Assembly: GCA_002371025.1 (NCBI GenBank)
Contig: DFFQ01000045.1
Coordinates: forward strand, 1 to 19,071
DNA from: Lachnospiraceae bacterium UBA3772
GTDB taxonomy: Bacteria > Bacillota > Clostridia > Lachnospirales > Lachnospiraceae
Length of the DNA: 19,071 nucleotides
Reading direction: 5' to 3'
Position 1 is the first letter of the stretch. Each line of letters starts with the position of its first letter. The position numbers were made by a program, and so were the translations under genes. Shown piece by piece: positions 2,992 to 19,071 of the stretch. A model generated the notes under the pieces. The model was not told the DNA's origin. It saw nothing but the letters and a program-made list of their open reading frames with translations, and searched no databases.

Positions 2992-2993
2992 AT

Positions 2994-4082: not shown

Positions 4083-4087
4083 TGCTT

Positions 4088-4888
4088 ATGTTTAATATTA
4101 TAAAATCTCAAAATTATTCGCTTCGCCGTGATCTACTGGTGGTGCTTACGATACTTACAGCTATAGCTCTGCCTTTCCTTGGAATTTATTTTACCAGAAT
4201 GATGCAGGAAATAGATTTTTCAAATATTACAGGATCAATGTATCATATTCTTCTCAATGAGGATATTGTTGCATTTAATATTTTTATCATTATGATCTTT
4301 GCGGCTAAGACTGTGGGAGGAGATAGCAGTGATAAGACAATAAATTATGAATTAATGAATGGTCACAGCAGAGAAAAGGTGTTTTTTGCAAGAGTGATAA
4401 ATGGTTTTTTCTGGAGTGTCATATTTGTAATGATCACCATATTCCTGCCTTATGTTGTAGTGATTTTTATCAATGGCTGGGGAGATAATTGTTCCTTAAA
4501 TGAGATGCTTATAAGAAATGGACTTTTGTTTTTTCCTATACTCAGACTATCTGCACTTTTTATGCTGATAACAGTTCTGGCTGATAGCTGTGGCGCAGGA
4601 ATTGGAGTTAGTTACCTTATTGTCCTTATTGAGGCTGTTTTTGATTCTGTCTTAGATGAAACTCAAAATAAAGAAGAGTATTTTAATTTTTTAAGTCTTT
4701 CAAATCTCACTAAGCTGGCAGAGGTTAACAACTCGTGGCAGACTGTTAAAGAGGGAAGGGTCATAAACTGGTTTGATTTTAGTACAAATAGTGAAATGGT
4801 AAGGAAGACATGTTATGTATCACTTATCATGGCAGCTATTTATATTATAGGAGCCTATTTATATTTTAAAAAGAAAGACAAGGGTTGA
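4088..4888 (+). CDS. ABC-2-type permease, first of a paralogous pair
   Basis: About 266 residues with six hydrophobic segments, the size and layout of LanE/LanG- or BcrB-like permeases. A conserved motif NYELMNGHSREKVFFAR follows the second helix, and its counterpart NYEVMSGHSR occurs in the next gene. The two proteins are therefore paralogues that probably form a heterodimeric channel with the ATPase upstream. Candidate starts are GTG 4079, ATG 4082 and ATG 4088. I choose 4088 because the GGAG at 4076-4079 then sits at an eight-base spacing; the other two lie on or two bases from it. Substrate is unknown; an antimicrobial peptide is the family expectation. Confidence 0.88.
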   Translation: MFNIIKSQNYSLRRDLLVVLTILTAIALPFLGIYFTRMMQEIDFSNITGSMYHILLNEDIVAFNIFIIMIFAAKTVGGDSSDKTINYELMNGHSREKVFFARVINGFFWSVIFVMITIFLPYVVVIFINGWGDNCSLNEMLIRNGLLFFPILRLSALFMLITVLADSCGAGIGVSYLIVLIEAVFDSVLDETQNKEEYFNFLSLSNLTKLAEVNNSWQTVKEGRVINWFDFSTNSEMVRKTCYVSLIMAAIYIIGAYLYFKKKDKG

Positions 4889-4893
4889 TGATT

Positions 4894-5682
4894 ATGAAAA
4901 ATATGATCAGATCGTTATTATATGAGATAAGAAAAAATAAATCTTTAAAGCTGGCATTTATAGGACTAGCTCTGTTAAATATTTTATTAGTTTTTATCAA
5001 TATAGGAGAAAATTCATTTTGTGAAGAATCAGCTAGTGCAATGCTTGCAGAGGGAAACAGTTTTTCATATATGATGGGGATGTATTTTGTTTTATTTGCT
5101 GTTGCTATGATAGCTGGCGGAGATTTTAAAGATAAGGTTATTAATTATGAGGTGATGTCAGGACATTCCAGGTTAAGTATCTTTATGGCAAGGAATATAA
5201 TTGCGATATTAGTTGCTTCATTTGGTGGGCTGATCCTTAGTTTTGTTCCGCTTGTTGCGTCCTGTATCGGATGGGGATTTGGAAACAGACTGGTACTTAG
5301 CGACGTGATTTTAAGAACATGTCTTTATTTATTTCCGTTTATCAGGATAGCCGCATTATTTTCAATGTTTACATTTTTGATAAAAAATCAATATGCAATG
5401 TTGGGAATTGGTTATGGCATCATATCATTTTGCCTTGTTACCTCAGGTACGGTAAAAGATCATACTAATTTTTTTACAGCAATGTTTAATCTGAATCTTT
5501 TATCAGGTTTTAAAGGCTGGAGTGTTTACAATATCAGCAATTTAAGAGGATTAGTGACTTATGCCGCTTTTGACAGCTCAGTAACTGTAAAGATGGTGGC
5601 AGGGACAGTGATCATATCCCTTATTGCAACGGGCATTTATCTTCTTTTAGGATATGCACTATTTAAAAGGGATGAGCTTTAG
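4894..5682 (+). CDS. ABC-2-type permease, second of a paralogous pair
   Basis: About 262 residues with about six hydrophobic segments and the NYEVMSGHSR motif shared with the previous permease, so it arose by tandem duplication of the same family. The frame opens at a TTG (4885), with ATGs at 4888 and 4894. The AGGG at 4881-4884 best fits ATG 4894 (nine-base spacing). The junction with the previous gene is compact, consistent with translational coupling in one operon. It should complete the transporter with the ATPase and the first permease. Confidence 0.87.
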   Translation: MKNMIRSLLYEIRKNKSLKLAFIGLALLNILLVFINIGENSFCEESASAMLAEGNSFSYMMGMYFVLFAVAMIAGGDFKDKVINYEVMSGHSRLSIFMARNIIAILVASFGGLILSFVPLVASCIGWGFGNRLVLSDVILRTCLYLFPFIRIAALFSMFTFLIKNQYAMLGIGYGIISFCLVTSGTVKDHTNFFTAMFNLNLLSGFKGWSVYNISNLRGLVTYAAFDSSVTVKMVAGTVIISLIATGIYLLLGYALFKRDEL

Positions 5683-5716
5683 GATATTAGATGGATTATA
5701 AAAAAGGAGGATTTCC

Positions 5717-7459
5717 GTGGATATATCATTTGCGATTTTGGAGATATTACTGTCAGTATTTCTATTTTTTATGTCAGTACGTTTAAAAAAATATCCCACT
5801 CCAAAAGGCAGGGTTTTATATTTTGTACCGGTGGCAGTTGCCTTAATTATGCTTGGTTTTGTGGGCTTTAATCTGATAATGGCGGGGCTTTATTTAGCTT
5901 CCTCTTTACTTTGCCTTAGTCTGTTTACGGAGAAGATTAATGTAAGAAGGGGCATAGCCTTGGCGGCATTTCTTTTATCATTAAGCAGTTTGCTTATGAT
6001 GAAATTTTCAAAAAATTATAAAAGATATTCCATAAGTGAAGATTTTGAAAATGTCTACAACACTATGAAAGAGCATTATGTTTTGTCAGAAGAAAAGGGA
6101 ATAGATTTTGATGGGCTTTATCTTAAATATCAGCCTTTGTTTAAGGAGGCGGATAAAAAGCAGGATCTTACTTTAAATTATCAGCTTTGGCAGCAGTTTT
6201 CTCAGGAATTCTATGACGGTCATGTAGGTTATGCACCTGGTAATATGAAGGATAAAGAAGTGAGCCGTATCATTTGTGAGTCCTATGGCAATGATTACGG
6301 ACTTTCAATAATAAAGCTTTCTTCAGGAGAATTTGTGGCAGTAAATGTTGAAGGAAGCAAGGCTTCTTATTCAATAAAGAGTTTAGAAGAAGGGAATTAC
6401 TTAGAAGATGAAGAGATTAAATTATTTAAGGATGCAAGGTTAGAATTTAAAACAAAAAACTCAGATAATGACAGGCTCAGTCTTTTAAATGCAGGAATTA
6501 AAAATGGTACCGTTATCACTAAATGGAATGGAAAAAATATAGAAGATTATTATGATGATATAAAATACTATTTCTTTCAGGTACCTGTAGATGAAAACGA
6601 AGAATTCTATAAGCCGATGTATGTGGCAGGTATGGGAGGAGATTCGGTAGAGATTTCATTTATTGATGAAGAAGGAAAAGAAAAGACTGTAACAGTAAAT
6701 AAGCTGGGAGCTTATGCCCCTAGGCTTTATAATACATTAATGACTATTGATAAAGGTCTTAAGATAAATAATCTTGGCTGGGAAGCTTTAAATGAAGAAA
6801 CTGTTGTCCTTAGAATTTATCAGATGGCTTATGATATGAAATCTTATACTGGCACAGATTATAGTGAAATGACAGATAAGCTTAGAAGCGAGCTTTTAGC
6901 CTATAAAGATGCAGGATATAAGAATATAATAATCGACCTTAGATCAAATACAGGAGGAAGTCCATTTATGGTAAGGGGAGTGGCGTGTCTCTTTGCCCCT
7001 GAGGGAAAGCATTTAGCATATTATTCAGCAAAGATAAATGAAAACACAGCTACATATGAAAGAGGAGAAGATGGAAGATACATAATAGGAGAAGAGGCTG
7101 TTAGCTATGAAGGCGAAGATCTTTGGCATGATGGAAATATCACCCTGCTTGTAAATGCCCAGACAGTCAGTGCCGGGGATGATATGGTATACATGATGGG
7201 AGAGTATCCTAATGTAAAAATAAAAGGAATAACAAAAAGTAATAATTCCTGTCAGGCTGTACAGGCAATGGATATTTCAACAGGCTCATTTTCTTTTTCA
7301 GTAGTTCCAAATCTTACTCCAGAAGGAGACATTGCAATCGACACCTTAAAAGATCATAAAGCAAGAGTTGATTTTGATGAATACATCCCTGTAACAAAAG
7401 AGATGGTGAAGGCTATATTTGATGAGGGGGAGGATTATATACTTCAGCAAGTAGATTAA
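5717..7459 (+). CDS. Membrane-anchored S41-family peptidase
   Basis: 580 residues starting at GTG behind a strong AAAGGAGG (5703-5710). The N-terminus has four hydrophobic segments (about 4-21, 34-51, 52-70, 79-96). Then come a helical region with EFYDGHVGY (H169), a PDZ-like stretch (GIKNGTVITKWNGKNI, 260-275), and the S41 core with IIDLRSNTGGSP (405-416). The nucleophile region is NAQTVSAGDDM (480-490, Ser485). The Lys of the CtpA/Prc Ser-Lys dyad is not visible where expected: the segment reads GITKSNNSCQAVQ. The DGH plus SAGD combination is instead like Tricorn-core or non-Lys S41 enzymes using Ser-His. It follows the exporter genes by 34 bases and is probably co-transcribed, so it may process or degrade a peptide at the membrane surface. 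Family assignment is sure; activity and substrate are inferred. Confidence 0.85.
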   Translation: MDISFAILEILLSVFLFFMSVRLKKYPTPKGRVLYFVPVAVALIMLGFVGFNLIMAGLYLASSLLCLSLFTEKINVRRGIALAAFLLSLSSLLMMKFSKNYKRYSISEDFENVYNTMKEHYVLSEEKGIDFDGLYLKYQPLFKEADKKQDLTLNYQLWQQFSQEFYDGHVGYAPGNMKDKEVSRIICESYGNDYGLSIIKLSSGEFVAVNVEGSKASYSIKSLEEGNYLEDEEIKLFKDARLEFKTKNSDNDRLSLLNAGIKNGTVITKWNGKNIEDYYDDIKYYFFQVPVDENEEFYKPMYVAGMGGDSVEISFIDEEGKEKTVTVNKLGAYAPRLYNTLMTIDKGLKINNLGWEALNEETVVLRIYQMAYDMKSYTGTDYSEMTDKLRSELLAYKDAGYKNIIIDLRSNTGGSPFMVRGVACLFAPEGKHLAYYSAKINENTATYERGEDGRYIIGEEAVSYEGEDLWHDGNITLLVNAQTVSAGDDMVYMMGEYPNVKIKGITKSNNSCQAVQAMDISTGSFSFSVVPNLTPEGDIAIDTLKDHKARVDFDEYIPVTKEMVKAIFDEGEDYILQQVD

Positions 7460-7466
7460 ATATGGT

Positions 7467-7525
7467 GGACGCCAAAATATAGACGAACGAACGCCAAAAT
7501 ATGGACGAACGGACGCCAAAATATA
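7467..7525. repeat. 22-base tandem repeat, 2.7 copies
   Basis: Units at 7467-7488, 7489-7510 and a partial unit at 7511-7525 share the core ACGCCAAAATAT. Units 1 and 2 differ at two positions. The third copy leads into the left arm of the palindrome that follows, so the repeats and the palindrome are built from the same sequence. Confidence 0.9.
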
Positions 7526-7606
7526 AAAGACACTCAAGCAATGCCATCAGCGGGCTAAAACATGCCCTTTGATGGCATTCTTTCGTGCCTTTTATTATAT
7601 TTTGGC
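7515..7606. repeat. 92-base imperfect palindrome with nested hairpin
   Basis: The outer arms are GCCAAAATATAAAAGACAC (7515-7533) and its near reverse complement at 7585-7606. An inner stem has 7541-7555 pairing with 7564-7578 at 13 of 15 positions around an eight-base loop. Such a structure can act as a transcription terminator for the protease operon. It can equally be a REP- or MITE-like element; the sequence alone does not decide. Confidence 0.75.
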
Positions 7607-7756
7607 TGGGCAGGCGGCTCTTATATAAGGTGTTGGTTTGCGGCGGTACTATAATTTTTGTGGGGGGGGCAGACACAATCGTGGAATTTAGCCAATGTGT
7701 CTTATGCATCACAGGAAGCTTTATTAAGAGACAAATTTCTGCATCCATTTTTTGTA

Positions 7757-7786
7757 TAGACATCCACAATAAATAAGGCGTATTAT
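7757..7786 (+). promoter_or_regulatory. Possible promoter of the small membrane protein gene
   Basis: TAGACA (7757-7762) and TATTAT (7781-7786) with an 18-base spacer each match the sigma-70 consensus at five of six positions. They lie about 50 bases before the ATG at 7838. In such AT-rich DNA a chance match is possible. Confidence 0.35.
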
Positions 7787-7837
7787 AGAATAATAAAAAT
7801 CACGTAGAAAATCATTAGGGGATTAAGGAAGGTTGAT

Positions 7838-8245
7838 ATGAAAACCATTAACAAAGTAGGGAGATTTCTAGGAATCATATCATCAATTGTGATAATAATT
7901 GCATTATTCCTGCCAAGTGTGGACAGAGATTATATGGATATCAGATATAGTACGCTTACTGTATTTGATAGCAACAGAGTAGGTGGGGTAATTATTATCA
8001 TGGTAGCACTTGCAGGATGTTATGCTGCATATAAGGGCAGCGGCCTTGCAACAGGAATTGCAGGTATAGCGTCCCTTGCTACAAATATTTATTTCGCAGT
8101 GCGTTTTGAAAGCGCTGATCCAGTGGCAAGAGCACTAAAAAGGATTGATCTGGGGCTCGTTACTCAGGGACTCGGTTTTTGGATAGCGATTCTTGGTTCG
8201 CTGGTTTTATTAGTAGCAGGAATCATGCTTTCAAAACAAAACTAA
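7838..8245 (+). CDS. Small four-helix membrane protein of unknown function
   Basis: 135 residues with about four hydrophobic segments (near 10-28, 48-66, 70-88 and 112-132). A short polar loop (PSVDRDYMDIRYSTLTVFDSN) sits between the first two helices. The fold resembles small hypothetical membrane proteins common in Clostridia, but I do not recognise the family. An AAGGAAGG-type ribosome site lies just upstream. The gene stands alone between the repeat region and the acetyltransferase gene. Its last codons, including the stop, lie in a 23-base segment that is repeated 39 bases downstream. Confidence 0.75.
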   Translation: MKTINKVGRFLGIISSIVIIIALFLPSVDRDYMDIRYSTLTVFDSNRVGGVIIIMVALAGCYAAYKGSGLATGIAGIASLATNIYFAVRFESADPVARALKRIDLGLVTQGLGFWIAILGSLVLLVAGIMLSKQN

Positions 8246-8286
8246 GCGTAACAAGCAACAATTATGCTTTCAAAACAAAACTAAGC
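8225..8286. repeat. 23-base direct repeat at the 3' end of the small membrane gene
   Basis: Copies at 8225-8247 and 8264-8286 are identical over 23 bases and start 39 bases apart. The first contains the last five codons and the stop of the preceding gene. The second is non-coding. This is a tandem duplication of a gene end with a diverged spacer. Confidence 0.9.
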
Positions 8287-8381
8287 ATTAAAAGCAGAGT
8301 ATCAGCAATAAAAAAACGGTTGTTCATGCAACTTATTTTATATAAAGAAAAATATTTTTTCTAGGTTATGCGTTTAACCTA

Positions 8382-8410
8382 TTGCCAAATAAGGAAACTT
8401 AGGTAATAAT
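8382..8410 (+). promoter_or_regulatory. Possible promoter of the AAC(3)-like gene
   Basis: TTGCCA (8382-8387) is followed after 16 bases by TAATAA (8404-8409), or after 17 by AATAAT. The gene's ATG is about 50 bases on. A short hairpin just upstream (AGGTTA with TAACCT, near 8363-8380) has no T run after it and is not a terminator on this strand. Confidence 0.35.
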
Positions 8411-8459
8411 CATAAACAGGACAGATAATAAATCTAACGAAACGACAGGAGATTTTTTA

Positions 8460-9254
8460 ATGGAAAAGTTTATGACGACAGTTACCAAAGAAGATATAAA
8501 AAAATCATTAAAAGAATTAGGACTTGCTAGTGGGGACACTGTAATGGTGCATACTTCACTTGGAAGTATTGGATATGTATGTGGCGGAGCTCAAGGTGTT
8601 ATTGAAGCTTTAATTGAGACAGTAGGCAGTGAAGGAACAATTATGATGCCAACTCAGTCCTGGAAGAATCTTGATCCAGAAGATGGCGTTCATTGGACTA
8701 TCTCAAAGGATGACTGGCAGATCGTAAGAGATAACTGGCCAGCATATGATAAGGCTATAACTCCAACAAATACAATGGGAGCCGTTGCAGAAATGTTTAG
8801 AAGCTGGCCTGGAGCTTTAAGAAGTGATCATCCAGCCAGATCTGTTGCAGCATGGGGAAAACATGCTGAGTATCTTACAAAAGATCATGATCTCTCTAAT
8901 ATCTTTGGAGAGGGTTCACCTATTGCAAAATTATATGAATTAAATGCCAAGGTACTTCTTATCGGTGTTGGATATGATAAGAATACATCTATTCATCTTG
9001 CGGATGTTAGAGCTGATTATCCAGGAAAACATAACTGCACTGAATATAGTGCCATTATGGAAAATGGAAAGAGAGTATGGAAGGCATATGATACTTTATT
9101 TGTTGATGGCGAAGATTTTGATGCCATCGGAGAAGCATTTGAGGCAGAGTGTTCTGTAGCACATGCTAAGGCAGGAGACGCCGAACTCAGACTTATGAAT
9201 CAGCGTGATATAGTTGATTTTTCTGTAAAATGGATTGAAGCAAACAGAAAATAA
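8460..9254 (+). CDS. AAC(3)-family N-acetyltransferase (YokD-like)
   Basis: 264 residues, the usual length. It has the family's N-terminal VMVHTSLGSIG (28-38), the strand GTIMMPTQSW, the HPARSVAAWG segment (124-133), GEGSPIAKLYEL (150-161) and TSIHLAD with the conserved His (H179). The family transfers acetyl from acetyl-CoA to the 3-amino group of aminoglycosides or to other small amines. Chromosomal members in Firmicutes are often of uncertain substrate, so resistance should not be assumed. AGGAG at 8447-8451 sits eight bases before the chosen ATG; a second ATG at codon 5 lacks such a site. The gene has its own terminator and no operon partner. Confidence 0.92.
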   Translation: MEKFMTTVTKEDIKKSLKELGLASGDTVMVHTSLGSIGYVCGGAQGVIEALIETVGSEGTIMMPTQSWKNLDPEDGVHWTISKDDWQIVRDNWPAYDKAITPTNTMGAVAEMFRSWPGALRSDHPARSVAAWGKHAEYLTKDHDLSNIFGEGSPIAKLYELNAKVLLIGVGYDKNTSIHLADVRADYPGKHNCTEYSAIMENGKRVWKAYDTLFVDGEDFDAIGEAFEAECSVAHAKAGDAELRLMNQRDIVDFSVKWIEANRK

Positions 9255-9339
9255 GTCTGTTAGTCTCACAATTTAATTTGGCTTAGAGGGTATGAGTTTC
9301 CCTTTAGCATTTTACCCGCTTTAAAACTCACTTATTTAG

Positions 9340-9386
9340 CTGATGGTCTTTGTTTTTGTTCGTTTTCAAAGACCATCAGTTTTTTT
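9340..9386 (+). terminator. Strong intrinsic terminator after the AAC(3)-like gene
   Basis: A perfect 13-base-pair stem, 9340-9352 with 9367-9379, with a T-rich 14-base loop and seven T at 9380-9386. It lies 85 bases past the stop. A weaker inverted repeat, TGAGTTT (9293-9299) with AAACTCA (9324-9330), lies between. Confidence 0.92.
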
Positions 9387-9415
9387 GGTTTTTTTTCGTT
9401 TTCAAAGTCCATCAG
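9359..9415. repeat. Duplicated 3' arm of the terminator
   Basis: Positions 9359-9379 and 9395-9415 match at 20 of 21 bases with an offset of 36. The second copy could pair with the same 5' arm (9340-9352) with one mismatch, giving a longer alternative hairpin. Confidence 0.9.
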
Positions 9416-9531
9416 CTTGTCTATTTGCTTATTTTTGGTTGCAGATAAAGTTGTCAATGACGTAAAATAACAAAAAAAGAAAAAACAAAAGATAGAAATA
9501 TTTATAAGTTAAAGCAAAGGATTTTTGACGG

Positions 9532-11433
9532 ATGTTTTTACCAATATCTAAAAATGAAATGAAGGAAAGAGGCTGGGACACAGCTGATTTTATATATGTG
9601 ATCGGAGATGCGTATGTGGACCATTCTTCATTTGGCCCGGCTATAATCAGCCGTACACTTGAAGCTCATGGTTACAAAATAGCTATCATTTCACAGCCGG
9701 ATTATAAAAATTCTGCCAGTATTACGGTCCTGGGAAAACCACGTCTTGGGTTCCTTGTATCAGCCGGTAATATGGATTCCATGGTAAATCATTATACAGT
9801 TAACAAAAAAAGAAGACATGAGGATGCTTATACGCCTGGCGGAAAAGCTGGAAGAAGACCAGATAATGCTACAATATGCTACTGTCAGATGATAAGAAAA
9901 GAGTATGGAAATGACATGCCTATAATAATAGGCGGCATTGAAGCGAGCTTAAGACGTCTGGCTCATTATGATTATTGGGCGGATAAGTATAAAAAATCTA
10001 TTCTTCTTGATTCTGGGGCAGATCTTTTAATATATGGAATGGGAGAACTGGCTACAGTTGAAGTGGCAGATGCACTTAATTCAGGAATAGCCATAAGAGA
10101 TATAACTTATGTGGCGGGAACTGCATATAATGCTAAAAACCTTGATACAGTATATGATCATATAATGCTTCCTTCTTATGATGAATGTCTTCAGGATAAA
10201 ACAAAATATGCAGAGTCCTTTAGAGTACAGCACATGAATACGGATAGTATAAGTGGAAAAACTTTGGTGGAACAGTATGGAGCTCACAGATTTGTGATAC
10301 AGAATCCTCCAATGCGCCCCCTTACTACTATGGAATTAGATGATGTATACGCACTTCCTTATGAAAATAAATGGCATTCTTCCTATGACAAACTAGGAGG
10401 GGTTCCGGCTTTTGGAGACATGAAATTTTCCCTTACTGTAAATCGTGGATGCTTTGGGGGATGCAGTTTCTGTGCAATAACATTTCATCAGGGGAGAGTT
10501 TTGCAGGCGAGATCAAAGGAATCCATCCTTAAGGAAGCGAAATGGATGATAGAACAGCCGGATTTCAAAGGATATATCTATGACGTGGGAGGACCAACGG
10601 CAGATTTTGATCATCCAGCCTGTGAGAAGCAAAAGAAATATGGCGTATGTCCGAATAAGCAGTGCCTTTATCCAGAAGTTTGTCCAAATATGAAGGTGGA
10701 TCATAAGGCATATGTTCAGATCCTGCGTGAACTAAGAAATCTTCCGGGAGTTAAAAAGGTTTTTATCAGATCTGGTATAAGGTTTGATTATGTCCTTGCA
10801 GATAAGGATGATACATTTTTTAGAGAGTTGATAAAATATCATATCTCAGGACAGCTTCGTGTAGCACCGGAACATGTAACTGATCACGTGCTGGATCTTA
10901 TGGGAAAACCAAGAAGTGAGGTATATCACAGATTCTGTCAGAGGTTTGAAAAAATAAATAAGGAATGTAAGAAAGATCAGTACCTTGTTCCTTATCTTAT
11001 TTCTTCTCATCCGGGTTCGGATTTAAATGATGCCATTGCTCTTGCGGAAGCTATAAGGGATATGGGATATATGCCGGAACAGGTGCAGGATTTTTATCCG
11101 ACACCATCCACAGTTTCAACGGTTATGTATTACACAGGTCTTGATCCAAGAACCATGAAAAAAGTAAGAACAGCTCATGATATGCATGAGAAGGCAATGC
11201 AGAGGGCTCTTCTTCAATATAAAAAACCTGAAAATTATGAATTGGTGAAAGAGGCTTTACTTAAGGCGAACAGGAAAGACCTGATTGGATTTGGAGAGAA
11301 ATGTCTCATTCCACCTAGAAAGATGAATCCAGAGAACCGAGGAAATATTAATCAAGAGAAGCGTGGAAAGAAGAAACCGGAGAAACAAGGAAAGATAAAG
11401 CAAACCAAAGTAAAATATAAGAAAAATTTATGA
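9532..11433 (+). CDS. YgiQ-family radical SAM protein
   Basis: 633 residues. The N-terminal half (about 1-290) is the UPF0313/YgiQ domain, with FLVSAGNMDSMVNHYT and IIIGGIEASLRRLAHYDYW as hallmarks. The radical SAM core follows, with the cluster-binding motif C307-x3-C311-x2-C314 in NRGCFGGCSFC. A Cys-rich insert (about 363-385, YGVCPNKQCLYPEVC) may hold a further metal or cluster. The C-terminus, from about residue 600, is a very basic Lys/Arg/Asn/Gln-rich tail, probably disordered. It should bind a [4Fe-4S] cluster and cleave S-adenosylmethionine; the substrate of YgiQ proteins is not known to me. AAAGG precedes the ATG by about 12 bases. Between the preceding terminator and this gene I saw no convincing promoter. 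Confidence 0.93.
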   Translation: MFLPISKNEMKERGWDTADFIYVIGDAYVDHSSFGPAIISRTLEAHGYKIAIISQPDYKNSASITVLGKPRLGFLVSAGNMDSMVNHYTVNKKRRHEDAYTPGGKAGRRPDNATICYCQMIRKEYGNDMPIIIGGIEASLRRLAHYDYWADKYKKSILLDSGADLLIYGMGELATVEVADALNSGIAIRDITYVAGTAYNAKNLDTVYDHIMLPSYDECLQDKTKYAESFRVQHMNTDSISGKTLVEQYGAHRFVIQNPPMRPLTTMELDDVYALPYENKWHSSYDKLGGVPAFGDMKFSLTVNRGCFGGCSFCAITFHQGRVLQARSKESILKEAKWMIEQPDFKGYIYDVGGPTADFDHPACEKQKKYGVCPNKQCLYPEVCPNMKVDHKAYVQILRELRNLPGVKKVFIRSGIRFDYVLADKDDTFFRELIKYHISGQLRVAPEHVTDHVLDLMGKPRSEVYHRFCQRFEKINKECKKDQYLVPYLISSHPGSDLNDAIALAEAIRDMGYMPEQVQDFYPTPSTVSTVMYYTGLDPRTMKKVRTAHDMHEKAMQRALLQYKKPENYELVKEALLKANRKDLIGFGEKCLIPPRKMNPENRGNINQEKRGKKKPEKQGKIKQTKVKYKKNL

Positions 11434-11480
11434 ACTTAAAAGTCATTTTATAGAGAACAAATATTCCATATGATAAAATT

Positions 11481-11515
11481 ATCCTGTATATGTGTTGCAT
11501 TTACAGGATTTTTTT
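11481..11515 (+). terminator. Intrinsic terminator between ygiQ-like and PAS genes
   Basis: ATCCTGTA (11481-11488) pairs with TACAGGAT (11502-11509), followed by seven T (11509-11515). It ends only 13 bases before the PAS gene's ATG, so it overlaps that gene's leader. No promoter is evident between hairpin and ATG. Confidence 0.7.
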
Positions 11516-11527
11516 ATGGGGGCGCTT

Positions 11528-11902
11528 ATGAAAAATAGTTTTTTTTTAGATAATAAAGAAGATTTTGATAATTCAGATATGGGGGTATATTGTCTTGATG
11601 AGGATAGACGAATTACCTATTGGAATAAAAAGGCAGAAGAGATCACTGGCTATACAGCAGACGAAATGATGGGAAAGTATTGCTTTGAAGGTGGACTTGA
11701 TCATATAACGGAAGATGATGTTCATCTTTGTAATACTATGTGTCCTATGCTGGGAAGCATGTTTGATGGGGAGAAGAGGGCAGCTGAAGTATGGCTTCTT
11801 AGTAAATCCCAAGATAGGATAAAAGTTAAAGTTGAAACGGATTGTTTATATGATGGAGATAAAACCATAGGAGCAATTGAATTTTTCAGACTTATAGACT
11901 GA
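11528..11902 (+). CDS. Stand-alone PAS domain protein with Cys/His cluster
   Basis: About 124 residues, nearly all one PAS domain: GVYCLDEDRRITYWNKKAEEITGY (19-42), then a strand pair ending in AIEFFRL. The insert C52-x6-H59-x8-C68-x3-C72 (ending LCNTMCP) is the pattern seen in PAS domains that usually sit in front of GGDEF domains. Its conserved Cys and His could bind a metal or sense redox; this is inferred. The frame extends upstream to ATG 11492, but that part is the terminator hairpin. ATG 11528 has a G-rich site (GGGGGCG, 11517-11523) at good spacing. The gene ends 12 bases before the PAS-GGDEF-EAL gene and probably feeds a signal to it. Confidence 0.82.
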   Translation: MKNSFFLDNKEDFDNSDMGVYCLDEDRRITYWNKKAEEITGYTADEMMGKYCFEGGLDHITEDDVHLCNTMCPMLGSMFDGEKRAAEVWLLSKSQDRIKVKVETDCLYDGDKTIGAIEFFRLID

Positions 11903-11914
11903 GGGGATTAGCAT

Positions 11915-13978
11915 ATGGGGAAATATGACGCAGATAAATATAAAGAGCAGCTTTTATTTCATGCATTTGATTCAATGCCGGGAGGAGTGCTGATATATAA
12001 AGCAAATGAAGAGGAAGAGATTCTCTATGCGAATCATGCGACCCTCACTATTTTTGAATGCGATTCTTTCGATGAATTTATGGAATTATCAGAGGGATCA
12101 TTTAAAAAAATGGTCCATCCCGATGATATTGAGCTGGTTGAGAGTGATATCGAGAATCAGATAATCACCGGCATCGATAAATTTGACCATGTTAATTACA
12201 GGATAATCACAAAAAATAATAAAGTCAGATATCTGGAAGATTATGGAAAGTTAGTTGAGCATCCTGAACTGGGGCTTTTATATTATGTTTTCCTTGTGGA
12301 TACAGATATTAAATATCTTACTTATGATGTGGATAAATTAACAGGACTGCCTGGGCAGAAAAGATTTGATGAATATGCTACCAGGCTGCTAAAGTTAATG
12401 TCTATTAATAAAGATGCACCGGAAATGGTGTATATCTATTTAAATATCAGTCATTTCAAAATAATAAATATTAAATATGGCATTGAACGTGGAGACAGGA
12501 TCTTAAAGGAAGTTGCATCAATCTTAAAAGATACCTTTAAGAATGATTATATTTCCAGGTTTGCAGATGATCATTTTGCTCTTCTTACGGTACATGAAGG
12601 CATTAAAGAAAAGATTGAATCTGTAAGCAGACGCATAATGGATATAGAACTTATAGGAAATACTATAGAATTAAAAATAGGTGCATATCTGGTAACTGAT
12701 TATAATGAGAAGGCGGAGATTTCTGTTGGATATGCACAGATCGCCTGCGAAAGCATAAAATATCAGGCAGGGGAACATTTTATATATTATACAGAGGAAC
12801 TGGGACGTAAGATAAATCTTCAGTACTATGTGGTAAATAATATAGAAAAGGCTATTGAAAAAGGTTATATAAAAGTATTTTATCAGCCGGTGATAAGAGC
12901 ACTGACTGGTGAATTATGTGGCATGGAAGCCCTCGCCAGGTGGATTGATCCGGAAGTGGGATTTCTTAATCCCTACGATTTCATATCCGCACTTGAAGAT
13001 GCAAGACTGATCCATAAACTGGACAGGTATATTGTTGAAGAAGTATGCAAAAATTATAAGAGATGTGTTGAAAATGATATCCCTCTCGTTCCGGTATCAT
13101 TTAACCTTTCAAGACTCGATTTTGTACTTACAGACATTAGAAAAGAAATTGATGATCTTGCAGTTCTTTATAATGTACCTAAAAAAATGCTGAATATTGA
13201 GATTACTGAAAGTATGTTTATGGAGGATGCAAGCCGGATCAAATCACAAATCGATGGCTTCCATGAATCAGGATACAATGTATGGATGGATGACTTTGGA
13301 AGCGGATATTCATCTTTAAATGTTCTAAAAGACTTTGATTTCGATGAATTAAAGATTGATATGGTCTTTCTTTCAAACTTTAATAAAAAGTCAAAAGATA
13401 TCCTGGAATCAGCAGTAATGATGGCGAAAAAAATAAATATCCAGACTCTTGCTGAAGGAGTCGAAAATAAAGAGCAGTTTGAATTTTTAAGAAGTATTGG
13501 ATGTGAGAAGATCCAAGGGTATTATTTCAGTAAGCCGTCTCCTTACGAAGAGATAATTAAAAATTGTGAGGAGAAGGGGGCCGTGGTGGAAGAATTGTCA
13601 GAGTCAGAATATTATGACAGGGTAGGTAAGGTTAATTTCCTTACAGATAAGCCGCTGGCTATTTCAGAAGATGATGGGAAACATTTCCGTATATTCTTTG
13701 CAAATGAACTGTTTAGTGAGATTCTACGTGACAGTGGGGTTCAATCAGTCGAAGAGGCAGAAAGAAATATGAATAATCCTGATAATCCTATTCATAAAAT
13801 GCTTCGTGAATTTGCGGTAAGAGTTCAGGAAAATGAGGAAAAGGAAATGACCTATCCTTATGGCAAAGAATATATGGAGCTGGAAGCCCGCGTAATTGCT
13901 GAACTAAACGGTAGATATATGTATGCTTTAAGTATTAACAATATTACAAAGAATGTTAATATGAAGGAAAAGATCTAA
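11915..13978 (+). CDS. PAS-GGDEF-EAL protein, probable c-di-GMP phosphodiesterase
   Basis: 687 residues with no membrane segment. An N-terminal PAS domain (about 15-135) is followed by a GGDEF domain starting at DKLTGLPGQKRFDEY. Its active site reads ADDHF (217-221) instead of GGDEF, so cyclase activity is probably lost. The EAL domain (from about 315) keeps MEALAR (E338), FNLS, EITES, DDFGSGYSSL (D459, D460), LKID, AEGVE and GYYFSKP, the residues that bind Mg2+ and hydrolyse c-di-GMP. A C-terminal region of about 130 residues (from about 555) ends in a PAS-like fold. Expected role: cytoplasmic hydrolysis of c-di-GMP, with the dead GGDEF as a possible GTP sensor. GGGG precedes the ATG. It forms an operon with the PAS gene and is closed by the terminator after it. 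Confidence 0.92.
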   Translation: MGKYDADKYKEQLLFHAFDSMPGGVLIYKANEEEEILYANHATLTIFECDSFDEFMELSEGSFKKMVHPDDIELVESDIENQIITGIDKFDHVNYRIITKNNKVRYLEDYGKLVEHPELGLLYYVFLVDTDIKYLTYDVDKLTGLPGQKRFDEYATRLLKLMSINKDAPEMVYIYLNISHFKIINIKYGIERGDRILKEVASILKDTFKNDYISRFADDHFALLTVHEGIKEKIESVSRRIMDIELIGNTIELKIGAYLVTDYNEKAEISVGYAQIACESIKYQAGEHFIYYTEELGRKINLQYYVVNNIEKAIEKGYIKVFYQPVIRALTGELCGMEALARWIDPEVGFLNPYDFISALEDARLIHKLDRYIVEEVCKNYKRCVENDIPLVPVSFNLSRLDFVLTDIRKEIDDLAVLYNVPKKMLNIEITESMFMEDASRIKSQIDGFHESGYNVWMDDFGSGYSSLNVLKDFDFDELKIDMVFLSNFNKKSKDILESAVMMAKKINIQTLAEGVENKEQFEFLRSIGCEKIQGYYFSKPSPYEEIIKNCEEKGAVVEELSESEYYDRVGKVNFLTDKPLAISEDDGKHFRIFFANELFSEILRDSGVQSVEEAERNMNNPDNPIHKMLREFAVRVQENEEKEMTYPYGKEYMELEARVIAELNGRYMYALSINNITKNVNMKEKI

Positions 13979-13984
13979 ATCAAG

Positions 13985-14050
13985 AAAAACCTGTCAGATA
14001 TGATTATCAGATATTATTTACTAAAATCTGAGGCTAATGACAGGTTTTTT
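13985..14050 (+). terminator. Terminator after the EAL gene
   Basis: A 12-base stem, 13985-13996 with 14038-14049 (core AACCTGTCA with TGACAGGTT), ends in a T run. The long loop has its own short stem, CAGAT with ATCTG, so the structure may be branched. Confidence 0.82.
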
Positions 14051-14064
14051 CGTTTCTTATATGG

Positions 14065-14093
14065 TTGTTAATTTCATTTTTTTTTATTATAAT
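14065..14093 (+). promoter_or_regulatory. Sigma-70-type promoter of the phosphoesterase-suf operon
   Basis: TTGTTA (14065-14070), a 17-base spacer and a perfect TATAAT (14088-14093). Transcription should begin near 14100. It is the best promoter in the window, and no terminator follows before the window ends. Confidence 0.8.
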
Positions 14094-14112
14094 ATGAAGG
14101 TATGTAAAAAAA

Positions 14113-14129
14113 TGGGTATAGTCTACCCA
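14113..14129 (+). promoter_or_regulatory. Small hairpin in the operon leader
   Basis: TGGGTA (14113-14118) and TACCCA (14124-14129) form a six-base-pair stem with a five-base loop. It lies about 13 bases into the predicted transcript and is not followed by a T run. It may stabilise the mRNA end or be a protein-binding palindrome. Confidence 0.4.
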
Positions 14130-14161
14130 CGTATTTATTTAAGAATGAAGAAGGATTAAAT

Positions 14162-15220
14162 ATGAGGTTTATTCATACATCAGATATATGTCTTGGGGCC
14201 GTTCCTGATGAAGGACGTGAATGGAGTCAGGATCGTGCAAGAGAAATTGAAGAAGCATTTGATAGAATAATATCAGACTGTAATGAGAAACATGTAGATC
14301 TTCTCCTTATTGCTGGTAATCTTTTTAATGCGCCACCAACCTTCGATGACCTGGTAAAGGTGGATGCAAAGCTTCAGACCCTTGAACATACAAGGACTAT
14401 TATGATCTCTGGAGACAGAGATTATATGGAACCAACAAGTGACTGGGCACATTTTAAATTCAGATCAAAGAGCGCAGTTCTTCCTGCAGAGAAGACTACG
14501 AATGCGTTCCTTAAAAATATAAATACATGTATTACAGGATATAGCTACGGTAAAAATGAGCATATAGAAAATGTTATCGGGAATATCAATCCTGGTAAGC
14601 CGGGAGCAATCAATATCTTACTTGGTTGTGGCGGTGATGCTGAGCATATGCCGTTTAGCAGAGAAAATATTGCAAGAAAAGGTTTCCACTATATTGCACT
14701 GGGACATTCAACTAATCCGGTGCACATATTAAAAAATCGTATGGCTTATTCAGGTTCACCGGAACCACTGGGGCCAAATGACAGAGGAAATCACGGTTAT
14801 ATTCTTGGAGAAATTGATGAGAAAGGCACCAGGATCAAATGGTGTCCTATAGCTAAAAGAAGTTATATCAATTTCCAGTTTGATCTCAGCTCAGATCTTA
14901 AGAATGAAGAAGTTGAGAAGATGGCTGAGGATAAGATGCTTAAGCTTGGTAAAGAGAATATCTATACCATTATTTTAAAAGGCTTTACCAATGAAGATAA
15001 GAGACCGGATTTTACAAGAATCCAGAGCAGGTTTAATGTATATAGGATAGTTGATAAGACTATTTCAAGAAAGAAAGTTGAACAGATGGAGGCTGATAAC
15101 GAGAAAAATCTTGTTGGAAGATTCATCAGTGAAGTAAATGATAGTTACACTATAGACACAAGGATTAGAGAAAAAGCTTTAAGATATGGTCTTGAAGCTC
15201 TGATCAAGGCAGGAGAATAA
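14162..15220 (+). CDS. SbcD/YhaO-like phosphoesterase with degenerate metal site
   Basis: 352 residues with the calcineurin-like fold order of SbcD/Mre11/YhaO, but almost every metal-ligand position is changed. DxH reads D8-I-C10. GDxxD reads G52-N53-L-F-N56. GNHD reads G84-D85-R86-D87. The next His motif reads LLGCGG (C156). GHxH reads GH182-S-T184. D8 and H182 remain. The structural tail YSGSPEPLG (196-204) is kept, as is a C-terminal region of about 130 residues like the capping part of this family. Known enzymes of this family are Mn2+-dependent nucleases working with a Rad50-like ATPase. This copy is predicted to lack nuclease activity and may act as a scaffold. AAGGA at 14151-14155 supports the start. 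It is the first gene of the operon, two bases before its ATPase partner. Confidence 0.85.
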   Translation: MRFIHTSDICLGAVPDEGREWSQDRAREIEEAFDRIISDCNEKHVDLLLIAGNLFNAPPTFDDLVKVDAKLQTLEHTRTIMISGDRDYMEPTSDWAHFKFRSKSAVLPAEKTTNAFLKNINTCITGYSYGKNEHIENVIGNINPGKPGAINILLGCGGDAEHMPFSRENIARKGFHYIALGHSTNPVHILKNRMAYSGSPEPLGPNDRGNHGYILGEIDEKGTRIKWCPIAKRSYINFQFDLSSDLKNEEVEKMAEDKMLKLGKENIYTIILKGFTNEDKRPDFTRIQSRFNVYRIVDKTISRKKVEQMEADNEKNLVGRFISEVNDSYTIDTRIREKALRYGLEALIKAGE

Positions 15221-15222
15221 AT

Positions 15223-16899
15223 ATGTATCTTACAAAGCTCTTATTAAGAGATTTTGGTAAATTTCATAACGAAGAGATTGTTCTTAAGCCTGGTCTTAAT
15301 GTAGTTCATGGTGGCAAAGATTCAGGTAAATCAACTGTTGGTTCATTTATCAAGGGAATGATGTTTGGTATTCCTAAGGATGATAAGAAAAACAGTGAAT
15401 ACAATCTCTATAAACCGGAAAAAGGCGCTTATTATTCAGGAGCGGCCTATCTTAAAAAAGATGGTACTAATTATCTTTTAGACAGAACATTCCTGGATGG
15501 AGCAAAGAAAATGTCTGTGCTTGATGTTAATTCAGGCAGAGATATTACTTTAAAAGACAGCAATACCATAACAGGTACTCTTATTGAAACTGATAAGAAT
15601 ACCTATCGTGATACAATGTATATTGGAGATAACAGAGAAGGAGCAGCTAAGGAATTAAATGATTATCTTAGCAGTATGATCCTTACTGGTTCATCTGATA
15701 TAGATTTAAACAAGGCAATCGCTCATCTTAAGGAGGAGAAAGAAAAGCATAATTCAAGGGCTCTTTCTCATAAGGTAAGTGAACTGGCTGAAAAGATAGA
15801 AGAATATGATGATGTAGATCCGGGACTTGCTGAAAATAAACAGGCTCTTAAAGATCTGACTGAGAAATTCTCTATGGAAGCTCAGAGAAGAAAAAGAGTG
15901 GCAAGACAGTTGGTGGAAAATGAAGATGGCTCAGTTTCTTATAAGGATGATGAAGAGATAGATAAAGAAATTGAGGCTTTGAATGGAAAAAAGGACGAGG
16001 ATGATGTAGAAATTGAGGAGGCTAAAGAGACTCCTTTAACTGACAGAATGCCAGTGATCCTTCTTACAGGTGTTTTGGTAGTACTTGTTATAGCTGAAAT
16101 AGTTCATCTTCTTCCATTTGATGAAGCAATTCAGAAGCTGTTTATTATATTTTCAATAGGTCTTGTAATAATCACCATTGTAGATGGTCTTAGAAGAAAA
16201 GGATTCTTCAATACGGATGACATAGAAACTCCGGATGAAGATGAATTTAATAAAGTCCTGGAAGAGATTAAAGAAGAGAGAGAACAGCAGGAAGAAACAG
16301 AATTTGATATGACCTTTGCAAAGGAATATCAGGAGAAGAAACAGAAATTAGCTGAGGAAAAAGAAAAGCTCTTAGAGAGAAAAGCTGCCAGAGATAAACT
16401 TAAGGCAGAGCAGGCTCAGGTATTTAAAAAGAAGGCAGAGCTTGAGGACGAAGTTAAGAGTATCAAGCTGGCTATAAGCACAATTGAAGCTTTATCAAGA
16501 AGTTATATGGAAAAAGCAGGAAAGAATATCGTTCCTTATCTTTCAGAGTTTGTTCCTGTTCTTACCAATAATCTTTTTGTTGGTATTTCATCAGATAGCG
16601 AAGGTAAACTTATTGCAGAAGGACATGGCGAAAATATGCCGGTTTCATCTCTTTCAGAAGAAATGGCTGCAAAGGTTTATACAGCTGTAAGGCTTAGTAT
16701 TGCCAAGCATACAGATAATGAGAAGCTTCCGCTTATCATAGATAATGCTATTAATTTTAAAAACCAGAAGGATACAGAAGCACTTCTTTCTGTACTTTCA
16801 GGTATAAATACGGAACAGATTGTAATTCTTACTTCAGAGGATACAGTTTCAAACATCCTTGATGATATGAAGATTTCTTATAATTATATTGATCTGTAG
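15223..16899 (+). CDS. SbcC/YhaN-like ATPase with two membrane helices, degenerate
   Basis: 558 residues, shorter than YhaN or SbcC (about 950-1,050). Walker A is intact (G30-GKDSGKST, K36). Two charged coiled-coil arms (about 165-265 and 340-425) flank two membrane helices (about 277-293 and 305-321), so the head domains would be cytoplasmic and tethered. The C-terminal head departs from the family. The signature reads LSEEMAAKVY (477-486), with Glu where Gly is expected. Walker B reads LIIDNA (504-509), with Asn508 replacing the catalytic acid. The H-loop reads ILTSED, with no His. It may therefore bind ATP but turn it over slowly or not at all. AGGAG (15211-15215) supports the start. Pairing with the upstream phosphoesterase is inferred from adjacency and from SbcCD and YhaNO precedent. 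Confidence 0.85.
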   Translation: MYLTKLLLRDFGKFHNEEIVLKPGLNVVHGGKDSGKSTVGSFIKGMMFGIPKDDKKNSEYNLYKPEKGAYYSGAAYLKKDGTNYLLDRTFLDGAKKMSVLDVNSGRDITLKDSNTITGTLIETDKNTYRDTMYIGDNREGAAKELNDYLSSMILTGSSDIDLNKAIAHLKEEKEKHNSRALSHKVSELAEKIEEYDDVDPGLAENKQALKDLTEKFSMEAQRRKRVARQLVENEDGSVSYKDDEEIDKEIEALNGKKDEDDVEIEEAKETPLTDRMPVILLTGVLVVLVIAEIVHLLPFDEAIQKLFIIFSIGLVIITIVDGLRRKGFFNTDDIETPDEDEFNKVLEEIKEEREQQEETEFDMTFAKEYQEKKQKLAEEKEKLLERKAARDKLKAEQAQVFKKKAELEDEVKSIKLAISTIEALSRSYMEKAGKNIVPYLSEFVPVLTNNLFVGISSDSEGKLIAEGHGENMPVSSLSEEMAAKVYTAVRLSIAKHTDNEKLPLIIDNAINFKNQKDTEALLSVLSGINTEQIVILTSEDTVSNILDDMKISYNYIDL

Positions 16900-16910
16900 G
16901 AGTTTTTTAA

Positions 16911-17852
16911 ATGGAATTAAAGCATAACATTCATAAATCCGGTCCTAATTTTCCAGGAACGGATTTTATTAAGGAGAAAATCATAGGAAAAAGGTATGTT
17001 AATACAAAGGTGGTAGATTTCCACGTGCATATCTTTCCTGATGAAATTGCAGAAAGAACAATCAGTAAACTGGAAGATCTTAGTGGGATTGGGCCATATA
17101 CCCGCGGAACAGCCGCAGATTTAAAAGCTTCCATGGAGAAATCAGGAACAGATATCTCTGTGGTACTTCCTATTGTTACAAATCCTGCCAAGGCATCACA
17201 TATTAATCAGGTGGCAGCACGCACTAATGAGACTTTTAGTGAGACAGGTATCATGTCTATTGGCGGAATTCATCCTGATAATGATAATTATAAGGAGATC
17301 ATTAAAGAGATAAAGTCTCTTGGACTTAAAGGTATCAAACTTCATCCGGATTATTATGGTGTAAGACTTGATGATATCAGACTTGAAAGGATTATAGATG
17401 AGGCTTCAAATCAGGGATTATTTATAGTAACTCATGCAGGTCCTGATATCGGACTCTATCCACCGGCCCTTAGTCCCGTAGATAGCATCGTAAAGGTAAT
17501 AAAGGATGTCAATCCTGAAAAATTCATCCTGGCTCATATGGGAGGATGGATGGTATGGAATGAAGCTTTTGATAAATTAAGAGAAACAAATGTTTATCTT
17601 GATACTTCATTTTCAATTGGTGAGATAAACTGGAAGCAGTTATCTAAAATAAGATATGGTTTCCATATGATGAATGATGACCTCTTTGTAAAGATGGTCA
17701 AAGGATTTGGCAGCGAGAGAATACTCTTTGCCACTGATTCTCCATGGTCAGATCAGAAGGAATATATTGACAGGATCAGTATCATGCCTCTCTCTGATGA
17801 AGAGAAAGATAATATTTTTTATAAGAATGCATATAAGCTGTTACAGCTTTAA
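16911..17852 (+). CDS. Amidohydrolase-2 (ACMSD-like) family metal hydrolase
   Basis: 313 residues. The metal site of the amidohydrolase superfamily is complete: HxH in DFHVHIFP (H38, H40), H175 in VTHAG, H209 in LAHMGG and D276 in FATDSPWSDQ, with IKLHP (H145) near the pocket. It should be a one- or two-metal TIM-barrel hydrolase or decarboxylase of the PF04909 type; the substrate is unknown. About 34 residues precede the first barrel strand, longer than usual. The ATG at 16911 has TAGGAG eight bases before it, overlapping the stop of the ATPase gene, so the extension looks real. Its place between the ATPase and sufC, with gaps of 11 and 17 bases, makes it part of the same transcript. Confidence 0.87.
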   Translation: MELKHNIHKSGPNFPGTDFIKEKIIGKRYVNTKVVDFHVHIFPDEIAERTISKLEDLSGIGPYTRGTAADLKASMEKSGTDISVVLPIVTNPAKASHINQVAARTNETFSETGIMSIGGIHPDNDNYKEIIKEIKSLGLKGIKLHPDYYGVRLDDIRLERIIDEASNQGLFIVTHAGPDIGLYPPALSPVDSIVKVIKDVNPEKFILAHMGGWMVWNEAFDKLRETNVYLDTSFSIGEINWKQLSKIRYGFHMMNDDLFVKMVKGFGSERILFATDSPWSDQKEYIDRISIMPLSDEEKDNIFYKNAYKLLQL

Positions 17853-17869
17853 ATAAATGGAGGTACATT

Positions 17870-18613
17870 ATGCCACAGTTGTTAGAAATAAAAGGGCTGA
17901 CTGTTAACGTGAGCGATAAAGAGATTCTTCACGGAGTTGATCTTAATGTCAACAAGGGAGAAGTTCATGTGTTGATGGGACCAAATGGTGCCGGAAAATC
18001 AACACTTGGCTACGCATTAATGGGAAATCCTAATTATTCAGTAACGGGAGGTTCAATAACCTTTAACGGCAAAGATATCCTGGAAGAGAACGCAGCAGAG
18101 CGCGCAAAAGACGGACTGTTCCTTTCGTTCCAGAATCCTATTGAAGTTCCTGGTATCACACTTTCAAATTTTATCAGAAGTTCTGTTGATCAGAAGACTG
18201 GTAAGCGTTCAAGACTCTGGGACTTCAGAAAGAAGTTAGAAAAAGAAATGAAGGTTCTTAAGATGGATCCTTCATATGCTGATAGAGATCTTAATGTAGG
18301 TTTTTCAGGCGGCGAGAAGAAGAAGGCAGAGATTCTTCAGATGCTTATGTTAAAGCCTGATCTTGCAATCCTTGATGAGACTGATTCGGGACTTGATGTT
18401 GATGCAGTAAGAACTGTATCAGATGGTGTGGAAGAGTTCATGAAGGAAAGAGAAGGAGCACTTATTATCATTACACATAGTACAAGAATTCTTGAGTCAC
18501 TTCATGTTGATTATACTCACATTCTTGTTAATGGTAAGATCGTTGCTTCAGGAGATGGTTCTCTTGTAGATGAGATCAATGAAAATGGATTTGAGAAATA
18601 TTTAGGTAAGTAA
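17870..18613 (+). CDS. sufC: SufC, ATPase of the SUF iron-sulfur assembly complex
   Basis: 247 residues, typical SufC length. Walker A is GPNGAGKST (37-45), the signature is FSGGEKKK (145-152), Walker B is LAILDETDSGLD (E170) and the switch His is in IIITHSTR. The LSFQNPIEVPGI segment (85-96) and the TDSGLD D-loop distinguish SufC from transport ATPases. It is the soluble ATPase that drives the SufBC(D) scaffold in building [Fe-S] clusters in the cytoplasm. GGAGG at 17859-17863 supports the start. sufB follows 27 bases later, the usual order. Unusually, sufC has no promoter or terminator separating it from the amidohydrolase gene upstream. Client enzymes such as the radical SAM protein in this window need its product. 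Confidence 0.96.
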   Translation: MPQLLEIKGLTVNVSDKEILHGVDLNVNKGEVHVLMGPNGAGKSTLGYALMGNPNYSVTGGSITFNGKDILEENAAERAKDGLFLSFQNPIEVPGITLSNFIRSSVDQKTGKRSRLWDFRKKLEKEMKVLKMDPSYADRDLNVGFSGGEKKKAEILQMLMLKPDLAILDETDSGLDVDAVRTVSDGVEEFMKEREGALIIITHSTRILESLHVDYTHILVNGKIVASGDGSLVDEINENGFEKYLGK

Positions 18614-18640
18614 TCTGACCAGATTAATTTAGGAGACTAT

Positions 18641-19071
18641 ATGAAAGAAAAGACTAAAGTCGAAGATATTTCAAGAGAGTTCTATGATTTCAGATATGAG
18701 GAAAAGGACTACTACAGGGTAGATGAAGGACTTACAGAAGAGATTGTAGAACAGATTTCAAAAGAAAAGAATGATCCTGAATGGATGCGTGAATTCAGAC
18801 TGAAATCTCTTGAAGAATACCGTAAGATAAGAGTCCCTCAGTGGGGACCTTCTATAGATGGTCTTAACATGGATAATATCGTTACCTATGTAAGACCAAA
18901 GAATAATAAAATGAGTGCTGACTGGGATGAAGTTCCGGAAGAGATCAAAGAGACTTTTGAAAAGCTTGGTATTCCAAAGGCTGAAAGAGAGAGTCTTGCA
19001 GGGGTTGGAGCCCAGTATGATTCAGAACTTGTTTATCATAATGTAAAAGAAGAAGTTGCAGCTCAGGGAGT
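18641..19071 (+). CDS. sufB: SufB, Fe-S assembly scaffold (5' part, cut by window edge)
   Basis: The first 143 codons are present and the frame runs off the end. The translation holds SufB N-terminal hallmarks: GLTEEIVEQISKEKNDPEWM, EFRLKSLEEY, VPQWGPSIDGL, KLGIPKAERESLAGVGAQYDSE and VYHNVKEE. SufB with SufC (and often SufD) forms the scaffold on which [Fe-S] clusters are built. AGGAG lies at 18631-18635 before the ATG. The rest of the gene, and any SufD, SufS or SufU genes, would lie beyond the window. Confidence 0.95.
   Translation, partial: MKEKTKVEDISREFYDFRYEEKDYYRVDEGLTEEIVEQISKEKNDPEWMREFRLKSLEEYRKIRVPQWGPSIDGLNMDNIVTYVRPKNNKMSADWDEVPEEIKETFEKLGIPKAERESLAGVGAQYDSELVYHNVKEEVAAQG

Follow-up and report, generated by a model that had tools for sequence, protein, structure and literature searches.

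Mre11-Rad50 is usually studied as an ATP-run cutting machine. SbcCD/Mre11-Rad50 and the YhaO/YhaN-type pairs of Firmicutes are the described systems closest to the gene pair analysed here, which lies in a window of 19,071 nucleotides (the whole stretch of DNA analysed: contig DFFQ01000045.1, positions 1 to 19,071, of assembly GCA_002371025.1, Lachnospiraceae bacterium UBA3772). With SbcCD/Mre11-Rad50 the window pair shares two adjacent genes, an Mre11-type fold and a Rad50-type head split by a coiled coil; with the YhaO/YhaN-type pairs it shares the gene order, a 350-aa nuclease and a PF13514 ATPase. Some YhaO/YhaN-type members carry the database labels ‘DNA repair exonuclease’ or ‘uncharacterized protein YhaN’, and in open-access papers containing both words neither YhaN nor YhaO stands in the title or abstract. 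Judged from sequence, the catalytic sites are gone from both proteins of the window pair: the nuclease site from the first, and the ABC signature and Walker B from the second (Table 1).

The nuclease gene is an intact reading frame with an ATG start and AAGGA upstream, which agrees with the intact frame and good ribosome site of the original prediction. Against the NCBIfam Mre11/SbcD models the best E-value was about 1e-9, with every model under its cut-off (at best 37.7 bits for a cut-off of 500; TIGR00619: 36.9 bits, cut-off 77.65), so the curated SbcD/Mre11 family cut-off is not reached; PF00149 was matched at an E-value of 2.5e-4 (22 bits, cut-off 21.5), and 399 homologues were found. An AlphaFold2 model, a check proposed with the original prediction, has a mean pLDDT of 92.6, and all 50 of the 50 Foldseek matches shown are Mre11/SbcD chains (E-value 8e-13 to 1.4e-8). 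Profile alignment matched the window sites to the ligand motifs of solved Mre11 (DNH, GDLF, GNH, LHQG, GHIH). Model, Foldseek and profile alignment agree on an Mre11-type fold, and together with the family matches and homologues they bear out the predicted Mre11/SbcD-like identity.

Eight nuclease positions were scored (D8, H10, D53, N85, H86, H156, H182 and H184, within the motifs DxH, GD, GNH, H and GHxH); from Mre11 we take D53 to be the bridging residue, H86 the catalytic one, and H10, H156 and H184 to be ligands. Throughout, a protein with at most one of its eight positions lost is termed (near-)intact and one with at least two lost is termed dead. Six of the eight are replaced in the window nuclease, leaving D8 and H182. 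The motif readings of the original prediction stand as written, and so does its count of six changed ligand or catalytic positions, provided that residue 56 is left out: the second D of GDxxD, which it had used, is not invariant in this family, H standing there in 94% of the 108 (near-)intact proteins, and we rejected residue 56 as a lost ligand. Across 121 rows (the 120 best of the 399 homologues plus the window), 28 have all eight residues, 5 lack one and 88 lack at least two. A full ligand set in close homologues, named beforehand as a sign of recent pseudogenization, is absent: of these 120 homologues, the highest-ranked one without a loss, P0070, shares 50% identity with the window. D8 was replaced in none of the 179 nuclease rows having a letter there. 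A Coprococcus eutactus homologue (P0118; 816 member sequences) lacks D53, N85, H86 and H184 (GNLYH, GSSD, GHLR) and is labelled a DNA repair exonuclease by its source despite these four lost positions.

The second gene starts 2 bases past the nuclease stop codon, giving the adjacent nuclease and PF13514 ATPase genes of the YhaO/YhaN type; neither its Rad50/YhaN-like identity nor its degeneracy was part of the original prediction. In the model (mean pLDDT 82) the head is split and coiled coils are present; between the two coiled-coil helices lie two hydrophobic ones, read as putative membrane helices, and Foldseek matched the model to Rad50 and SMC-type proteins, so that model and search agree on a Rad50-type head split by a coiled coil. 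In the window the Walker A motif is kept, and since it is intact ATP binding may persist; it is lost in some other dead lineages. The LSxGx signature, the Walker B acidic pair and the D-loop of SbcC/Rad50 read LSEEM, DN and N514 in the window. There is no CxxC zinc hook at the coiled-coil tip of the window ATPase, which has zero Cys; among the partners, CxxC occurs somewhere in the protein in 1/70 dead and 5/108 (near-)intact ones. By Kyte-Doolittle hydropathy, 68/70 dead and 89/105 intact partners carry at least two hydrophobic helices mid-protein.

Table 1. Features of the window pair and its surroundings (positions are those of the window).
Feature	Position	Strand	Basis
Aminoglycoside 3-N-acetyltransferase-like	8460-9254		PF02522, E 1e-86 (family match only)
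PAS-GGDEF-EAL protein, just upstream of the pair	11915-13978		
Mre11/SbcD (YhaO-type) pseudo-nuclease, 352 aa	14162-15220	+	homologues, AlphaFold2 model, Foldseek; 6/8 catalytic/ligand positions replaced
Motif I, DIC for DxH: D8 kept, H10 to C	14183-14191	+	alignment to homologues
Motif II, GNLFN: D53 to N	14315-14329	+	alignment to homologues
Motif III, GDRD for GNHD: N85 to D, H86 to R	14411-14422	+	alignment
Motif IV, CGG for HGG: H156 to C	14627-14635	+	alignment
Motif V, GHST for GHxH: H182 kept, H184 to T	14702-14713	+	alignment
Short Rad50/YhaN-like ATPase partner, 558 aa, degenerate	15223-16899	+	PF13476 E 4.5e-11, PF13514 E 1.3e-9
Walker A, HGGKDSGKST, kept in the window	15307-15336	+	alignment of partners
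Basic stretch near the putative membrane part, end of first coiled-coil helix	15868-15942	+	entropy, clade consensus
Two putative membrane-spanning helices (aa 276-296, 301-325)	16048-16197	+	Kyte-Doolittle hydropathy, model helices
Second helix of the coiled coil, well kept in the dead clade	16201-16497	+	identity comparison
ABC signature, SSLSEEMAAKVY: LSxGT lost, G480 to E	16645-16680	+	alignment of partners
Walker B/D-loop, LPLIIDNAINFKNQKD: second acidic residue (508) to N, D514 to N	16726-16773	+	alignment
Amidohydrolase gene (PF04909)	16911-17852	+	relative at most 1800 bases downstream of the ATPase in 19/42 testable clade loci (leaving out L046 and L056, where the amidohydrolase overlaps the ATPase end)
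sufC-like ABC protein	17870-18613	+	SufC/SufB relatives downstream of the pair, counted on the same strand, in 37/42 testable clade loci (at least 1800 bases after the ATPase)

To compare the two proteins across loci, we combined the nearest 80 of at least 531 confirmed loci (L031-L110; in 80/80 of these the ATPase gene follows the nuclease gene) with 100 matches picked among the best-scoring part of a 397-genome list (L126-L225). After two duplicates were dropped, the pair set comprised 178 loci plus the window. Matches of the scan behind L031-L110 are labelled mainly as Lachnospiraceae or Eubacterium, besides some Clostridium and Clostridiales and a single ‘Bacteroides’. For each locus, eight positions were counted in the nuclease and eight in the ATPase, and 174 rows were readable, five rows with unreadable positions being left out. 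The nuclease is (near-)intact in 105 of the 174 rows, and there the ATPase is (near-)intact in 105/105; it is dead in the other 69, a share which is no unbiased estimate for the bacterial family, and of these the ATPase is dead in 62 and has no position lost in 7 (L108, L190, L194, L206, L210, L213, L224). An intact nuclease with a dead ATPase occurs in 0 of the 174 readable pairs. Intact orthologues were found in many genera of the window's bacterial family. Walker A is also altered in the Eubacterium ruminantium group (L069, L072, L073, L075, L076, L078), in L059, L092, L094, L095, L099 and L100, as well as in L044, L082, L088 and L131; for Eubacterium ruminantium ATCC 17233 (L072) neither protein of the pair has a Pfam match at an E-value of 0.01.

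The direction of change was read from outgroups and a tree. Outgroup pairs from four further families of the order carry all motifs in nuclease and ATPase alike (4/4, one of them, L256, being only 24% identical and perhaps no orthologue), and because these are intact we took the intact state as ancestral and the losses as derived. A tree was built from 178 nuclease sequences with the motif columns excluded (quick LG+G4; L219 left out); with the outgroups, it makes the window pair an orthologue of intact pairs from its bacterial family. The window's clade comprises 47 rows, every one dead (support 93), and spans the window's own genus and at least two other genera (L061; L127). On this tree 9 changes are needed to explain the dead nuclease, 7 of which well-supported branches make unavoidable, and 4 to explain the dead ATPase. 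Counted as losses only, these are 9 nuclease and 4 ATPase losses, all 4 within dead-nuclease clades, a count which presumes that full motif sets were never regained; equal-cost parsimony also allows a single ATPase loss in the large clade with three later regains, and we consider regain of a whole motif set unlikely. A dependent model of the two traits fitted better than an independent one (likelihood ratio 29.6, p 6e-6 at 4 df, with the root set to intact), with runaway rates because nuclease and ATPase losses for the most part share branches; an independent-pairs test, underpowered, gave 3 for, 0 against and 4 tied (p 0.25). The order ‘nuclease first’ is drawn from the seven one-sided rows with dead nuclease and intact ATPase.

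Within the ATPase, conservation in the window clade is inverted. Identities were compared between sequence pairs at a matched nuclease identity of 42-62% (dead clade: 735 pairs; three intact groups in the same range: 16, 123 and 44 pairs) and among all intact rows (2275 pairs); one intact and two other dead groups have zero sequence pairs at 42-62%, and the inversion is therefore described for the window clade. Identity of the C-terminal head is 0.30 in the dead clade versus 0.72, 0.50 and 0.61 in the intact groups (all intact: 0.41), that of the membrane hairpin is 0.56 versus 0.46, 0.28 and 0.19 (all intact: 0.14), and that of the second coiled coil is 0.56 versus 0.40, 0.30 and 0.36 (all intact: 0.19). 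By this sequence comparison, no part of the window-clade ATPase is kept better than the putative membrane hairpin and the second coiled coil, and the C-terminal head drifts. The basic stretch beside the putative membrane segment is nearly fixed in the clade (entropy of block 221-240: 0.53, versus 2.94 in the intact set, which is more diverse and was not matched for divergence). The nearest intact group already shows good conservation of the hairpin (0.46), so the constraint on it is probably older than the loss of catalysis. At short distance the head is still constrained (dN 0.006-0.045 at dS about 0.37), which argues that it is not free of function.

These observations suggest a DNA-cutting machine turned into a non-cutting membrane scaffold, and we consider a membrane-anchored, non-catalytic scaffold of the Mre11-Rad50 type to be a reasonably probable reading of the pair. 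The Mre11-like protein would still dimerise and join two Rad50-like heads, and the coiled coils, anchored by the putative hairpin, would fix the assembly to the inner side of the membrane. As a non-enzymatic scaffold or tether, and with no clamp cycle driven by ATP, it would keep nucleic acid or protein at the membrane. For cutting, the cell retains canonical SbcCD. The path to this state, as present states suggest it, would lead from a membrane-bound working pair through loss of the nuclease to an ATPase head partly freed from selection.

The genome of the window itself encodes SbcD with full motifs and an adjoining SbcC (C238), as well as two more YhaO/YhaN-type pairs, C77 (full nuclease motifs) and C169. 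The YhaO-type protein of C169 (G000; L123, 655-1773, minus strand) has GNHG for GNHD, with the remaining motifs present. Loss of cutting by the window pair would be tolerable because canonical SbcCD and these two pairs remain. The same set, with (nearly) full nuclease motifs, would also provide targets for a regulatory decoy, in which the dead pair tunes active Mre11-Rad50-type paralogues via mixed complexes. This appears unlikely: 20 of the 56 orthologue-bearing genomes of the genus show that orthologue as their sole match at an E-value of 1e-3 (e.g. G011, G022, G456; several of the 20 are incomplete), so that a YhaO-type partner is not generally visible, and identity of the window nuclease to C77 and C169 is 29% and 23%. 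Canonical SbcCD could still be such a partner.

Downstream of the pair, the amidohydrolase gene begins 11 bases past the ATPase and the sufC-like gene follows after a further 17 bases; genes upstream vary among loci. SufC/SufB relatives, common downstream of the pair in the window clade, were found downstream in 0 of 35 other loci (no length filter). This arrangement suggests that the pair is co-transcribed with Fe-S assembly genes in the window clade. Taken further, the whole Mre11-Rad50-type machine might have been exapted in one genus as a non-enzymatic membrane scaffold within a suf operon, placing or regulating SufBCD, which we hold to be doubtful at best; because other dead lineages have no suf link, the core function need not be tied to suf.

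The suf genes, together with C10, C156, H182 and D8 in the old metal site of the window, could also be read as signs of a new ligand or chemistry, the altered pocket binding another metal or a nucleotide and having a different activity. Within the 45 window-clade rows, D8 is held in 100% and position 53 is N in 98% (D in 100% of 108 (near-)intact rows), which fits this reading. Position 10 varies in the clade among H, Y, R and C, and position 156 among H, C, S, N, V and A. With neither C10 nor C156 conserved, a new Cys-based metal site built from the two was rejected, and in the lack of a common new ligand set we regard new chemistry in general as improbable. D53N is nearly fixed in the clade and the other lost nuclease sites differ by lineage. 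The original prediction had looked to an orthologous group sharing the same substitutions across Lachnospiraceae; the group exists, and no single set of substitutions is common to its members.

Such differences among lineages are what slow decay of a dispensable gene pair would produce, and the drift of the ATPase C-terminal head at depth points the same way. Gene absence can be added: no orthologue was found in 5 of the 61 genomes of the window genus (G019, G023, G024, G474, G476; three of the five are >90% complete), and in G019, G023 and G024 the partner ATPase is missing too or is only a distant paralogue. One dead gene of the genus (G013, 350-aa frame) has a stop in the matched range near its end. 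Decay is nevertheless already contradicted by the dN/dS values and is very improbable. Between the window and its two nearest relatives (L031 and L032; nuclease 97-98% identical), dN/dS (Nei-Gojobori) is 0.028 and 0.031 for the nuclease and 0.047 and 0.064 for the ATPase; nuclease dN/dS lies between 0 and 0.15 in 18 of 19 dead pairs (one saturated) and between 0.03 and 0.08 in 7 of 9 intact pairs (two saturated), the window nuclease thus being as low as intact pairs. Strong purifying selection acts on both genes of the window pair. An orthologue is present in 56 of the 61 genomes of the genus (a few as fragments, with motifs read at the fetched loci), full-length frames occur in many lineages, and the dead pair is carried by isolates, such as Eubacterium ruminantium ATCC 17233, as well as by MAGs. 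Because dN/dS is about 0.03 and the orthologue is so widespread in the genus, the window nuclease, as its pattern of substitution indicates, is no pseudogene, and on the sequence side the earlier reading of retention rather than decay holds. A residual or alternative nuclease, cutting by other residues or with the partner's help, could draw on D8, H182, the acidic D85 and a fold intact in the model, and is highly unlikely with D53, H86, H10, H156 and H184 all replaced and 7 of the 8 positions lost in 13 of 174 rows.

Three further candidates were rejected. Many sister loci (L070-L107), intact and dead, have spoIIID directly upstream of the pair (the L085 copy matches PF12116 at an E-value of 6e-39), and another dead group retains it (L080-L082, L084, L085, L088). 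It was found within about 1.2 kb upstream at 0 of 20 more distant pairs, and none of the 61 window-genus genomes has a SpoIIID match that passes the cut-off (3 weak ones fall below it); we read it as local synteny and not as a link to sporulation. Anti-phage defence (Lamassu, Gabija, PtuA) gave no strong model match to either protein: none for the nuclease and five weak N-terminal AAA matches for the ATPase (E-value 3e-6 to 1e-3). A promoter-like site at 14065-14093 belongs to a class of which 16 were found versus 15.7 expected in shuffles.

The favoured reading, a membrane-anchored scaffold, points to a membrane-anchored branch of the Mre11-Rad50 family. In several lineages the nuclease and then the ATPase motifs were lost and the remainder was kept, the sole intermediate seen in the 174 pairs being dead nuclease with intact ATPase; this is a natural experiment on the question which parts of the complex matter without catalysis. 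Some gut and rumen proteins labelled ‘DNA repair exonuclease’ are very probably no exonucleases. No description of a dead Mre11-Rad50-like pair was found in the open-access literature by title or start of abstract.

The original statement that no function is described for such a dead phosphoesterase was partly wrong, since inactivated calcineurin-like phosphoesterase domains occur in other complexes. Vps29 of the retromer is a metallophosphoesterase fold serving as a protein scaffold, and is not known to be linked to DNA ends or to an ABC/SMC-type partner. Dpb2 belongs to another complex with another partner, and is not known to have a Rad50-like protein or a membrane anchor. In PMC7308368, Dpb2, the B subunit of DNA polymerase epsilon, is described as having an inactivated calcineurin-like phosphoesterase domain inside the complex, and its likeness to the window nuclease is this retention of an inactivated domain in a larger assembly. 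Compared with the YhaO/YhaN-type pairs, the window clade is dead in both parts. Compared with SbcCD/Mre11-Rad50, the window pair has lost the nuclease and ATPase motifs, and its coiled coil is short, carries a putative membrane hairpin and has no CxxC hook; on the predicted features, it fails as a member of the SbcCD enzyme family in the catalytic features of both parts and retains the architecture.
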